In this document: positions 55,935 through 61,237 of the stretch, piece by piece
Layout: each line of letters opens with the position of its first letter
Numbering within the stretch: the first letter of the stretch is position 1
From: Sulfurovum sp. UBA12169
Lineage (GTDB): Bacteria; Campylobacterota; Campylobacteria; Campylobacterales; Sulfurovaceae
Assembly: GCA_002742845.1 (NCBI GenBank)
Contig: DLUH01000005.1
Coordinates: forward strand, 383,707 to 447,706
Direction: 5' to 3'
Length of the DNA: 64,000 nucleotides
Translations under genes and position numbers: made by a program
Notes under the pieces: generated by a model
Seen by the model: the letters and a program-made list of their open reading frames with translations, nothing else
The model's database searches: none
What the model was told of the DNA's origin: nothing

Positions 55935-56009
55935 GCGGGCGTAGCTCAGGGGTAGAGCATAACCTTGCCAAGGTTAGGGTCGACGGTTCGAATCCGTTCG
56001 CCCGCTCCA
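55935..56009 (+). tRNA. tRNA-Gly (anticodon GCC)
   Basis: 75 nt cloverleaf; acceptor GCGGGCG/CGCCCGC, anticodon loop CTTGCCA, encoded CCA. First of a four-tRNA group. Confidence 0.97.
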
Positions 56010-56132
56010 TAAATAAAAAATCCTCTTGATGTGAAACGGTCACAATCAATTAATCTTGCTGAATTCATTGTGCAACTCAGAAGAGACTAGAAGTGTATAA
56101 ATTTATAATTGTTTAAGTGGTGTTTCTATGAT

Positions 56133-56220
56133 GCCCGGATGGTGAAATCGGTAGACACAGGGGACTTAAAATCCCCCGGCTATTGCAGCTGTGCCGGTTC
56201 GAGTCCGGCTCCGGGCACCA
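56133..56220 (+). tRNA. tRNA-Leu (anticodon UAA)
   Basis: 88 nt class II tRNA; acceptor GCCCGGA/TCCGGGC, anticodon loop ACTTAAA, long variable arm, encoded CCA. Confidence 0.96.
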
Positions 56221-56225
56221 CCTTT

Positions 56226-56299
56226 GGAGCTATCGCCAAGCGGTAAGGCCGCAGCCTGCAAAGCTGCTATCCCCGGTTCAAATCCGGGTAGCTCCTCCA
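56226..56299 (+). tRNA. tRNA-Cys (anticodon GCA)
   Basis: 74 nt; acceptor GGAGCTA/TAGCTCC, anticodon loop CTGCAAA, encoded CCA, only 5 bp after tRNA-Leu. Confidence 0.96.
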
Positions 56300-56354
56300 T
56301 ATTTAAACTAGATTTTATCTTTTTAGGATAGAATTTTATTCTTTTCATAACCAT

Positions 56355-56442
56355 CGGGAGATGGTAGAGCGGTTGAATACACCGGTCTTGAAAACCGGCG
56401 AAGGTAACACTTCCGGGGGTTCGAATCCCCCTCTCCCGGCCA
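56355..56442 (+). tRNA. tRNA-Ser (anticodon UGA)
   Basis: 88 nt class II tRNA; acceptor CGGGAGA/TCTCCCG, anticodon loop CTTGAAA, variable arm, discriminator G, encoded CCA. Confidence 0.96.
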
Positions 56443-56560: not shown

Positions 56561-56677
56561 TTATTTTTTTAAGATATTGTTTTTGAATCCTTTTATGTTT
56601 TTAAGTGAAATTTTATAGCTAAAGTATATTATCGCAGGCCAAAGGCCTAACCAAAATAATGAAACTGTATAATCCAT
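56561..56677 (-). CDS. Small CydX-like single-span membrane peptide of the cyd operon
   Basis: A 38-codon gene 9 bp after the cydB stop with a perfect AGGAGG 5 nt before its ATG. It encodes a short acidic start (MDYTVS), one aromatic-rich membrane segment (LFWLGLWPAIIYFSYKI) and a basic tail. Position, size and topology are those of CydX, the third subunit that stabilises cytochrome bd in proteobacteria, though its sequence is not clearly homologous. I infer an equivalent role; a distinct small subunit is the alternative. It is too short for most gene finders. Confidence 0.7.
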   Translation of the reverse strand: MDYTVSLFWLGLWPAIIYFSYKISLKNIKGFKNNILKK

Positions 56678-56686
56678 ATTTTCCTC

Positions 56687-57817
56687 CTAATAATTGTGCG
56701 CATCGGGCGCCTCAATCTCTTCTTTCGTAATTTTTGTTTTATTCATTTGGTGCCAGGCGTATGCTATGTATCCTAAAACAAAAGGAACCATCAAAGAAAC
56801 ATATCCCATGACCATCAATGTATAGTGACTGCCGGAACTATTCATAATAGTTAAGGAACTTTGCAAATCAAATGTAGAGGGATAGTAGGCAGTGCCATTG
56901 AGTCCCACATTTAATAGCAACGCGGTTACCGCCAATACTGTACCTGCTCCTCCTGTTTTAATACAAGAGGATTTGTTAAAATGCACAGTCAAATAAACTG
57001 CTGTAATTACCATCACAACACCCGACAAAAACATGCCTAAAATGACAGGCATGTCTAGAAAATTCAACAAATATTTAAAAGACTGTATATAAATGGAGCC
57101 ATTTTCATTGATCGCAAAACCGTCTTTAGTTAAAATCCAAATTATGAAGCTTAGGAAAAATATCAAAAATGCAATCATGGTAAATTTGATTGAGTCGATG
57201 GCCCTATTTTGTATGTCTTGATGGTCTATGCTGTTTATAAAATATAGCGCACCTAATATTTTTGATAAAAATACCAAAGCAAAGCCAAGCAAATAATTGA
57301 ACGGATTTAGTAATGCCTCCAAGCCCCTTAAATCATTTTGCCAATATGAAAAATTTCTTTCATCTATGATAAATTCATTGCCGCTAAAAAAAGTACTTAC
57401 GGCAACGCCAAGCAAAAATACGCCCATATTTCCGTTGATATATAAAAAAGTTTCATAAGTTTTTTGACCAAAAAAGTTATTTGGTTTTATTCTGTATTCA
57501 TAGCTAACGGCTTGAATGATAAAGCAAAAAAGGATCGCCATCCATACCCAGTAGGCTCCCCCGAAACTTGTACTGTAAAAAAGAGGAAAAGCGGCAAAAA
57601 GTGCTCCGCCAAACAATACCAAAGCAGTAAACCCAAGCTCCCATTTTCTGCCTAGGCTATTGACCATCATGGTTTTTTCCGTTTCGTTTGCAGAAAGAGT
57701 ATTTAAAAGAGTTTGCCCTCCTTGTACAAACATCATAAAAACGAATAATCCTCCAAGAAGTGAGATTATACTCCACCAATATTGTTGCAATTGCAACAGA
57801 GATAAATTTTCAAACAT
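56687..57817 (-). CDS. cydB: Cytochrome bd ubiquinol oxidase subunit II
   Basis: CydB is the structural partner of CydA in the terminal oxidase that reduces O2 with quinol. The 376-residue protein has about eight to nine hydrophobic spans and begins MFENLSLLQLQQYWW, preceded by GGGAGG; the longer frame to 57847 would overlap cydA. The stop of cydA and this start are 1 bp apart. Features such as GGAYWVWMAILF and AVSYEYRIK are typical of CydB. It is followed by the 38-codon small gene. Confidence 0.95.
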   Translation of the reverse strand: MFENLSLLQLQQYWWSIISLLGGLFVFMMFVQGGQTLLNTLSANETEKTMMVNSLGRKWELGFTALVLFGGALFAAFPLFYSTSFGGAYWVWMAILFCFIIQAVSYEYRIKPNNFFGQKTYETFLYINGNMGVFLLGVAVSTFFSGNEFIIDERNFSYWQNDLRGLEALLNPFNYLLGFALVFLSKILGALYFINSIDHQDIQNRAIDSIKFTMIAFLIFFLSFIIWILTKDGFAINENGSIYIQSFKYLLNFLDMPVILGMFLSGVVMVITAVYLTVHFNKSSCIKTGGAGTVLAVTALLLNVGLNGTAYYPSTFDLQSSLTIMNSSGSHYTLMVMGYVSLMVPFVLGYIAYAWHQMNKTKITKEEIEAPDAHNY

Positions 57818-57818
57818 C

Positions 57819-59345
57819 TTAGTGCCTCCCCTCAAAACCAAGTTCAATTTGTTTTGTCATAATTTTTATTTCAGCGATCAATAATGCAGTAAAGAGAACC
57901 GCAAAGAGCCAAAATGTTATCATGACATTCGTGCTTGAAATATTTGTAACCGCTATACCGACCGGCATAAGATCTTGTACAGCCCATGGCTGCCTGCCTA
58001 CTTCGGCCACAATCCATCCTGCTTCGGCAGCAATATACCCAAGGGGTATTGACCAAAGGGCAGATTTTAAAATTAGTTTATAATTGGTAATTTCTCTTTT
58101 TTGAACAAGAAATAAAAGAAGAGCAAAAAGTACCATAAACCAAATTCCCAGTATGACCATTAGATGAAAACTATAAAATGTTAAAGCAACGGGCGGAACG
58201 ATATCTTCCGGTTTTTCCAAATATCCATATCCAAAATATGGCATATTTTCACCCAAAACCATTTTCGCCTCATTTGCTTTTTCATCATTGTCGGTACGTT
58301 TTGCATTTTTATATTCTTTAAACGCTTCAACGGCAATTTTGCCTTTTTGGATTTTCTCTTTCGCGCTCATGATGTTTTGTTCGCTGTTGCCCCAAACTAA
58401 ATCTTTAAGCCCCGGCACATAAGCATCAATATTGTGATGTCCAAGAAGCGATAGAATATATGGAATTTCAAGCTCAAAAAGATATGTATTTTCATTATTT
58501 TGGAGTGTTTTGTTCGGATTAAGTGCTCCTATTACTACGATCCCCGCTTCATTTTTTCCTTCATACAGTCCTTCCATGGCAGCCAGTTTAACCGGTTGCG
58601 TCATAGCAACTTGATGTGCCGATTCATCGCCGCTGAATAAAAGAAAAAGTGAAGTAATGAACCCAAAAGTGGCCCCTATGATCAAAGAGTTTTTAGCCAT
58701 CCACGTATCTTTATCCTTTAGTATCAGCCAGCTACTTATGCCCACAACAAACAAAGAGGCTATCACATAACCGCTGCCTACAGTATGTAAAAATTTACTC
58801 ACGGCTACGGGAGAAAGTATTACCTCCCAAAAGTTACTCATTTCGTTTCTTGCTGTATCGGGATTAAATACCATACCTACGGGATACTGCATCCATCCGT
58901 TTGCAACCAATATCCAGAGTGCCGAAAGATTTGAACCTATAGCTACCAGCCAGGTTGAAAGCAAATGAAAGCTTTTTGATACTCTGTTCCATCCAAAAAA
59001 CATTACAGCAAAAAATGTACTTTCCATAAAAAATGCTAAAATACCTTCAATTGCTAAAGGTGCTCCAAAAATATCCCCCACAAACCAACTATAGTTTGCC
59101 CAGTTTGTACCAAACTCAAATTCCATAATAATGCCGGTTGCAACACCTATAGCAAAGTTGATTGCAAACAAGGTCATCCAAAAAATGGTGATCTTTTTCC
59201 ATCTTTCATCACCTGTTTTAACATAGATAGTTTCCATAAAAGCAACGATAAAGCCAAGTCCCAATGTAAGGGGGACAAACAAAAAGTGATAAATTGCGGT
59301 CAAGGCAAATTGTGCTCTGCTCCAGTCCACCAATGTCTCTTCCAT
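57819..59345 (-). CDS. cydA: Cytochrome bd ubiquinol oxidase subunit I
   Basis: CydA binds hemes b558, b595 and d and oxidises quinol. The 508-residue protein has the axial His in AIYHFLFVPLTLGLG, a FWMTLFAINFAIGVATGI segment, a large Q-loop region (about residues 250-400) and the conserved GRQPWAVQDLMP near the C-terminus. All fit the family. It is the second gene of a DUF4492-cydA-cydB-small-gene operon. High O2 affinity of bd oxidases suits a microaerobic habitat; a bd-type variant insensitive to cyanide cannot be told from sequence. Confidence 0.96.
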   Translation of the reverse strand: MEETLVDWSRAQFALTAIYHFLFVPLTLGLGFIVAFMETIYVKTGDERWKKITIFWMTLFAINFAIGVATGIIMEFEFGTNWANYSWFVGDIFGAPLAIEGILAFFMESTFFAVMFFGWNRVSKSFHLLSTWLVAIGSNLSALWILVANGWMQYPVGMVFNPDTARNEMSNFWEVILSPVAVSKFLHTVGSGYVIASLFVVGISSWLILKDKDTWMAKNSLIIGATFGFITSLFLLFSGDESAHQVAMTQPVKLAAMEGLYEGKNEAGIVVIGALNPNKTLQNNENTYLFELEIPYILSLLGHHNIDAYVPGLKDLVWGNSEQNIMSAKEKIQKGKIAVEAFKEYKNAKRTDNDEKANEAKMVLGENMPYFGYGYLEKPEDIVPPVALTFYSFHLMVILGIWFMVLFALLLFLVQKREITNYKLILKSALWSIPLGYIAAEAGWIVAEVGRQPWAVQDLMPVGIAVTNISSTNVMITFWLFAVLFTALLIAEIKIMTKQIELGFEGRH

Positions 59346-59347
59346 AA

Positions 59348-59557
59348 CTATCTCCTTGTCAAATTAGATGAAACAAATTCAGATTTTTCGCTATCTGTTT
59401 TATATTCACTTTGAAATGTTTTGTCATGTATGAAAAGTTTTAAAACTATCAAAATTACAAATAGTTTTATAAAAACTATTTTCCATAGTATTTTCCCTAC
59501 CGTCATCTTTCTAAAACCTTCTATATACATATCATAAATAAGTTTTATACTATTCAT
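59348..59557 (-). CDS. DUF4492 small membrane protein upstream of cydA
   Basis: A 69-residue protein with one hydrophobic segment (LWKIVFIKLFVILIVLKLF, about 24-42) after a basic amphipathic start (YIEGFRKMTVGK). It matches the DUF4492 type that precedes cydA in Bacteroidota and Campylobacterota. Its stop is 2 bp before the cydA start, and AAAGG precedes its own ATG, so it is the first gene of the operon. Its function is unknown; an assembly or accessory role for cytochrome bd is inferred from the conserved linkage. Confidence 0.82.
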   Translation of the reverse strand: MNSIKLIYDMYIEGFRKMTVGKILWKIVFIKLFVILIVLKLFIHDKTFQSEYKTDSEKSEFVSSNLTRR

Positions 59558-59859: not shown

Positions 59860-60243
59860 ATGCATGAGAACATGGCAAAATTAATGTTGCGAGTAATGGT
59901 GGGGGGCTTGATGTTATTTCACGGCATTCATAAAGCAACGCACGGCATTGCTCCGATCAAAGGAATGCTTGCGGCACATCATTTTCCTGAGATGTTAGGA
60001 TATGGGATCTATGTCGGCGAAATACTTGCGCCCATTTTTCTTATTATTGGATGGAAAAGCCGATGGTGGGCCGGTATTATTGCGATGACGATGGTGGGGG
60101 CTATCTACCTGGCACACAGTAAAGATATTTTTGCCATCAATGCTCATGGGGCATGGATGATAGAGTTACCCATACTGTTTTTGATTTCTTCGTTGGCAAT
60201 AGTTTTGCTTGGGTCTGGAAAATATGCGATAATTCGTGACTAA
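59860..60243 (+). CDS. DoxX-family membrane protein
   Basis: A 127-residue protein with four hydrophobic spans. The start MLRVMVGGLMLFHGIHKATHG and the GYGIYVGEILAPIFLIIGWKS and LAIVLLGSGKYAI segments match the DoxX/YphA family, which is linked to oxidative-stress or quinone-associated functions in several bacteria. GAAGGAG precedes the ATG. It runs away from the cyd operon and is 58 bp upstream of the MsrBA gene, so these two may share a transcript. Precise function is unknown. Confidence 0.85.
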   Translation: MHENMAKLMLRVMVGGLMLFHGIHKATHGIAPIKGMLAAHHFPEMLGYGIYVGEILAPIFLIIGWKSRWWAGIIAMTMVGAIYLAHSKDIFAINAHGAWMIELPILFLISSLAIVLLGSGKYAIIRD

Positions 60244-60301
60244 GAAAGGCGGAAAATGTATAAAAAGGCAGTAGCATATATTGAACATAAAGGAAAGTGT
60301 A

Positions 60302-61237
60302 ATGAAAAAAATAAGTCTTGTGTGGATATTGTTGTTTTTGGCCTTTCTTTTGGGGGATCAAATGAAGCCATGGACTGAGCGTATTAAGACGCTATCGCCC
60401 GAAGAAAAGCATGTGATTGTAGACAAAGGAACGGAAATGCCTTTCTCGGGAGAATATGTAAGCACAACGCAAGAGGGTATTTATACCTGCAAAGTATGTG
60501 GCCAACCGCTTTATGTTTCTAAAGATAAATTTAATTCACATTGCGGATGGCCAAGTTTTGACGATGCCATTCCCGGAGCAGTCAAAGAACAAACGGATGA
60601 CGATGGTAGACGCACGGAAATTGTTTGCGCAAAGTGCGGTGCACATCTTGGCCATGTATTTAGGGGAGAGGGGTTTACTCCCAAAAACACGAGACACTGC
60701 GTAAACTCCATTTCACTTCAGTTTGAAGCAAAAAAAGACAATTTCGACAAAGTGTTACAGAAGGCTTACTTTGCGGGGGGATGTTTTTGGGGTGTTGAAT
60801 ATTACCTTGAAAAACTCAACGGTGTAAAAGAAGTGACCTCCGGGTATATGGGAGGTGCTATTGAGGCTCCCACTTATGAACAAGTGTCTGCCGGCCAAAC
60901 AGGACACCTTGAGGCTGTAGAAGTAGTGTATGATCCAAAGATCATTACTTATGAAGCGCTTGCTAAAACATTTTTTGAGATTCATGATCCTACCCAAATA
61001 GACGGCCAAGGACCGGATATTGGAGAACAATATCGTTCCGCGGTATTTGTGGGCAATCAGAAAGAAAGAGAAGTTATTGAAAATCTTATTGGTTTGCTTG
61101 AAAAAAAAGGCTTTAAAGTTGCCACCAAGGTACTGGATATAAAGCCTTTCTATAAAGCTGAAGCCTATCACCAGAACTACTATCAGCAAAAAGAAAAGAC
61201 TCCCTATTGCCATGGGTATGTGAAGCGTTTTGATTAG
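60302..61237 (+). CDS. msrBA: Bifunctional periplasmic methionine sulfoxide reductase, MsrB-MsrA fusion
   Basis: The enzyme repairs both R- and S-methionine sulfoxide. The 311-residue protein begins with a signal-like segment (MKKISLVWILLFLAFLLGD), so it is probably exported. The MsrB domain comes first (zinc cysteines in CKVCGQ and CAKCGAHLGH; catalytic RHCVNSISL), then MsrA (AYFAGGCFWGVEYYLEKLNG with catalytic Cys, and GDGPDIG-like QGPDIGEQYRS). The order B-A is the reverse of many fusions. It lies after doxX in the same direction. Confidence 0.95.
   Translation: MKKISLVWILLFLAFLLGDQMKPWTERIKTLSPEEKHVIVDKGTEMPFSGEYVSTTQEGIYTCKVCGQPLYVSKDKFNSHCGWPSFDDAIPGAVKEQTDDDGRRTEIVCAKCGAHLGHVFRGEGFTPKNTRHCVNSISLQFEAKKDNFDKVLQKAYFAGGCFWGVEYYLEKLNGVKEVTSGYMGGAIEAPTYEQVSAGQTGHLEAVEVVYDPKIITYEALAKTFFEIHDPTQIDGQGPDIGEQYRSAVFVGNQKEREVIENLIGLLEKKGFKVATKVLDIKPFYKAEAYHQNYYQQKEKTPYCHGYVKRFD

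Follow-up and report, generated by a model that had tools for sequence, protein, structure and literature searches.

A short gene directly after cydB, encoding a protein called CydY, was predicted in 15 species of Epsilon- and Deltaproteobacteria with a long-Q-loop CydA (Allen et al. 2014, PMC4325964). The C. jejuni homologue, CioY, has been found to be translated by means of Ribo-seq and to co-immunoprecipitate with CioA in both directions, and its AlphaFold model sits at the CydX position (Froschauer, Svensson et al. 2025, PMC11955535). For CydX itself, the published contacts on CydA are with helices 1, 5 and 6, residue S233 is located at the CydA-CydX interface (PMC13189123), and the C-terminus lies in the cytoplasm (PMC6853902). 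The name CydY has also been used for E. coli CydH/YnhF, which occupies a different site, at CydA helices 1 and 9 (PMC6853902). In Porphyromonas gingivalis, the gene upstream in the cyd operon was named cydW, with function unknown, and no cydY was found (PMC4668044).

Here, we analyze a short open reading frame (ORF) after cydB in a stretch of DNA of 64,000 nucleotides, the whole of which is called the window below. By homology, the ORF is a member of the described CydY/CioY family and does not constitute a new one. The reading we favor, with a probability of about 0.86, is that it is the cydY/cioY gene of a cydW-cydA-cydB-cydY operon, whose product would be a helix with the N-terminus out and the C-terminus in, bound to CydA, most likely in the helix 5/6 groove, as a CydX-like clamp that would help the di-haem site to assemble or to remain stable. 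New in this work are the extension of the CydY range into Bacteroidota, the strict link to DUF4492/CydW, and a signal in CydA helices 5 and 6.

The operon is compact and located on the minus strand, in the order DUF4492 (cydW)-cydA-cydB-cydY. The DUF4492 gene (59348-59557; PF14899, E 5.5e-26) encodes a single-helix protein of 69 aa, cydA (57819-59345; PF01654, E 5.3e-165) a long-Q-loop protein of 508 aa with a full-length match to 6rko_A, and cydB (56687-57817, stop included; PF02322, E 2.6e-69; TIGR00203) a protein of 376 aa from the ATG at 57817. The alignment shows that the haem ligands of CydA, corresponding to E. coli H19, H186 and M393, are conserved, as are residues E99, E107, K252, E257 and E445. 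The Q-loop stretch has 154 residues, compared to 152 in E. coli, which is the long Q-loop associated with CydY/CioY. With its canonical haem ligands and long Q-loop, the enzyme is thus, as judged from its sequence, an ordinary bd-type oxidase. Scans for promoters and terminators gave chance-level results only.

Divergently upstream of the operon, on the plus strand, there are genes for a DoxX protein (59860-60243) and an MsrA-MsrB fusion (60281-61237), which place it in an oxidative-stress neighborhood, while four tRNA genes (Gly, Leu, Cys, Ser; 55935-56442, plus strand) point toward its end. Within the same genus, cydB is present in only about one quarter of the genomes sampled, and the window CydA groups with L026, from an Arcobacteraceae MAG, and L027, and not with the other members of its own genus. 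The grouping and the patchy occurrence together suggest that the operon may have been acquired by transfer.

The cydY ORF (56561-56677, minus strand), identified on the basis of the reading frame, the family HMM, dN/dS and AF2, encodes a 38-aa single-helix protein with the sequence MDYTVSLFWLGLWPAIIYFSYKISLKNIKGFKNNILKK. The cydB ORF ends at 56687, which leaves a gap of 9 bp, as had been stated in an earlier reading of this DNA made from the letters alone (the sequence-only reading). An AGGAGG Shine-Dalgarno site (56683-56688, minus strand) overlaps the cydB stop codon and lies 5 nt upstream of the cydY ATG. Its pairing energy with the 16S tail is −10.2 kcal/mol, to be compared with −11.2 for cydB (GGGGAGG), −8.5 for cydA and −3.9 for DUF4492, so what had been called the best ribosome site of the operon turns out to be the second. 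In the whole window, the hexamer does not occur above chance (17 seen, 17.2 expected). The case for the gene rests on conservation. AF2 predicts a helix over residues 3-37 with a mean pLDDT of 86, and the aromatic-rich membrane span with a basic tail that had been described from the letters is confirmed. The protein displays every CydY feature that could be tested: in addition to the long Q-loop of its CydA, the ORF lies directly 3′ of cydB, has a strong ribosome binding site (the AGGAGG above), and encodes one transmembrane helix with the conserved Trp near the helix start, Pro and Tyr (W9, W13, P14 and Y21 in the family alignment and the AF2 model). Membership is also seen by homology, in that one HMM matches both the window ORF and two loci (L064, L068) of C. 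concisus, a species that Allen et al. (PMC4325964) give in the legend to their CydY figure.

This HMM was built from 14 Campylobacterota homologues, with the window sequence left out, and was searched against up to 400 nt after cydB in 99 loci. A CydY-family ORF was found directly after cydB in 94 of the 99 related operons, as opposed to 1 of 99 on the reverse strand used as control, the score of the window ORF being 44.7 bits (E 3e-13). The sequence-only reading had named a lack of conservation of this frame after cydB in relatives as counting against it, and conservation is what is observed. In the proper frame, the dN/dS of 17 close pairs is 0.12, whereas the two other frames give 1.21 and 1.60. 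The orthologue in a genome of the same genus (G467) is 79% identical, with pS 0.44 and pN 0.11; the differences at codon positions 1, 2 and 3 number 7, 2 and 11, respectively, and an indel of 6 nt preserves the frame. The window cydY is a real gene under purifying selection.

Among 150 Campylobacterota genomes, all at least 95% complete, 65 have cydB, and 63 of these carry DUF4492, cydB and cydY together; in the genomes of this sample without cydB, no cydY match better than E 0.004 was obtained. The two exceptions are G133, with a decayed operon, and G144, which has no cydY after cydB. The decay in G133 (locus L137) has left cydB broken, cydA damaged, and DUF4492 and cydY undetectable. A member of the sister genus to G144 (G196, locus L138) retains cydY, some 500 bp away from cydB, while the gene was not found in G144. 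In a sample of 149 genomes of Bacteroidales, the order around Balneicella, cydB is present in 110, DUF4492 in 98 and cydY in 63 (ca 42%), and all 63 genomes with cydY also have cydB and DUF4492. Over the two phyla, genomes with cydY have both cydB and the upstream DUF4492 in 126 cases out of 126. CydY also occurs in named Bacteroidales loci, in Chlorobiota MAGs and in one Desulfuromonadaceae MAG, and the literature searched contains no earlier report of it in Bacteroidota. In a sample of the whole of Bacteroidota, nearly all genomes are without CydY; only the genome at the center of the sample scores, the next best match having an E of 5.6e-4.

There are 35 Bacteroidales genomes, out of the 98 with DUF4492 and cydB, that have no cydY. 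No diverged CydY was found in the downstream DNA of these 35, and the absence is therefore most likely due to true loss and not to divergence. The published absence from P. gingivalis (PMC4668044) fits these losses in part of Bacteroidales. Together with G144, these genomes mean that CydY is dispensable, so that it cannot be essential to every host.

The losses were used in a test in which each of them, located on a CydA tree of Bacteroidales, was paired with near relatives that carry CydY. At least 11 independent losses were found, and for 11 of them the change in CydA is larger in helices 1, 5 and 6 than in the rest of the helices (p = 0.003 in a paired sign-flip test), which is an exploratory result, with approximate helix boundaries and with most losses being single genomes. 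The change is greatest in helices 5 and 6. Helix 6 alone gives p = 0.003, the largest changes being at E. coli positions 225, 233, 189 and 188, and it ranks as the most changed helix in all of 80 reruns in which the pairings and the helix boundaries were varied. For helices 1 and 4, the paired test gives no effect. With hydropathy-based boundaries, the p value for helices 1, 5 and 6 rises to a median of 0.035 and a maximum of 0.14. An earlier, unpaired comparison of whole CydA helices with and without CydY was not significant, control clades being similarly spread, and the signal is therefore only suggestive. The gene for CydY follows cydB and is strictly tied to cydB and DUF4492; where it has been lost, the loss is accompanied by a change in CydA helix 6.

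As to the topology, the Campylobacterota CydY proteins have on average 3.4 K/R C-terminal to the helix and 0.02 N-terminal to it, from which the N-terminus is predicted to be outside and the C-terminus inside. In one Campylobacterota family (f15 and G047; loci L019, L020 and L258-L261), CydY is 70 aa long with a conserved, signal-peptide-like N-terminus before the helix, which points to the same orientation. For the window's organism, we infer where exactly CydY binds, how it is oriented and that it has a stabilizing role. CydY would span the membrane once, N-terminus outside and C-terminus inside, and would pack on CydA; its most likely location is the groove that involves helices 5 and 6 and holds CydX in E. 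coli. There it would clamp the haem-binding bundles of CydA, and would be needed for assembling or stabilizing the di-haem site and not for catalysis itself.

That the ORF arose by chance, or that the stretch is a regulatory 3′ element from which no protein is made, could be argued from its very small size and from the chance-level frequency of AGGAGG in the window. This is essentially refuted by the frame-specific purifying selection, both in the close pairs and against G467, by the protein-level conservation across four phyla, and by the translation of the C. jejuni homologue (PMC11955535). Another explanation is that CydY is truly orthologous to CydX but has diverged so far that the relationship can no longer be recognized, with which its equal operon place and length and its probable topology and CydA site would agree. 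However, the CydX motif YxxWxxGx15E/D is found in 0 of 94 family members, the window's included, no Pfam or NCBIfam model, that of CydX included, matches the window protein or 30 family members, and a separate origin was already argued for by Allen et al. (PMC4325964). We regard orthology as already disfavored, and rather improbable. By sequence, CydY is not CydX, but it probably works like it. The proposal in the sequence-only reading of a CydX-like accessory-subunit gene at the operon end holds thus with respect to conservation, selection and likeness to CydX, but not as membership of the CydX family. Likewise, calling the gene unannotatable was fair as far as automatic pipelines are concerned, although the family had already been published as CydY and CioY. 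Searches of the PDB with the window protein and the family gave nothing useful. CydZ (DUF2474) was also considered and rejected: the ORF has no PF10617 match, and CydZ goes with a short-Q-loop CydA, while the Q-loop here is long.

It could also be that CydY, as a membrane protein encoded in the operon, takes part in haem insertion or in assembly and dissociates afterwards, instead of being a resident subunit. The loss of CydY from genomes in which CydAB and DUF4492 stay is in line with this, but in C. jejuni, CioY and CioA each bring down the other (PMC11955535), and the change of CydA helix 6 upon CydY loss fits a lasting interface. A transient assembly factor is therefore considered unlikely.

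Among loci whose flanking DNA is long enough, the second small gene, DUF4492, precedes cydA in nearly all, and it is retained even where CydY has been lost. AF2 places a membrane helix at residues 19-47 of the window protein, and K31, within this helix, is invariant in 39 sequences, as are Y11, G14, F15 and W25. A charge inside the membrane is unusual, and a buried acidic or haem-propionate partner of K31 is suggested. Modeled alone by AF2, both CydY and DUF4492 are plain helices, for which fold searches are uninformative because single helices match everything. A PDB sequence search with DUF4492 gave nothing, and the term is absent from the literature searched. Yet the published RT primer PGN_1040-L of P. 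gingivalis (PMC4668044) encodes GKTLWA, the DUF4492 hallmark, which identifies cydW at the sequence level as DUF4492. The earlier idea of two small subunits, CydY and the putative subunit DUF4492, is strengthened and has strong genomic support, because DUF4492 is present in all 126 CydY genomes of the two phyla. More tentatively, and at somewhat less than even odds, CydW(DUF4492)-CydA-CydB-CydY may be a distinct four-subunit class of long-Q-loop bd oxidases common to Campylobacterota and Bacteroidota, in which DUF4492 would be a resident with an intramembrane invariant lysine, possibly in the place that CydH takes in E. coli, and CydY would have evolved independently into the CydX position.

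Many anaerobes of the gut and of sediments consume oxygen by means of cytochrome bd, which is also a target for antibiotics. Should CydY and DUF4492 prove to be subunits, then bd preparations or expression constructs from Bacteroidota and Campylobacterota that contain only cydAB miss parts, and automatic annotation overlooks one gene of the cyd operon in most such genomes. The natural losses of CydY provide ready enzyme pairs for probing the function of CydX-type subunits.

Compared with the known systems, the P. gingivalis operon (PMC4668044) shares the upstream partner gene, CydW, but has no cydY. E. coli CydH/YnhF (PMC6853902) is likewise a small single-helix bd subunit, but it is a different protein at a different site, and the shared name CydY is a clash without homology. 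The CydY of Allen et al. (PMC4325964) has the same short ORF after cydB, strong ribosome site, single helix and conserved tryptophan, while that description covers 15 species, with no Bacteroidota or Chlorobiota and no mention of DUF4492. CioY (PMC11955535) is similar as a 34-aa single helix encoded after cydB, with conserved Trp, Pro and Tyr; C. jejuni CioAB, however, is described there as cyanide-insensitive with unknown haems, whereas the window CydA has all canonical bd haem ligands. E. coli CydX/AppX differs in its motif and profile, but is alike in size and operon position, and probably in N-out/C-in topology and in contact with CydA helices 5 and 6, and the best reading of CydY is that of a CydX-like clamp on CydA that evolved separately from CydX.
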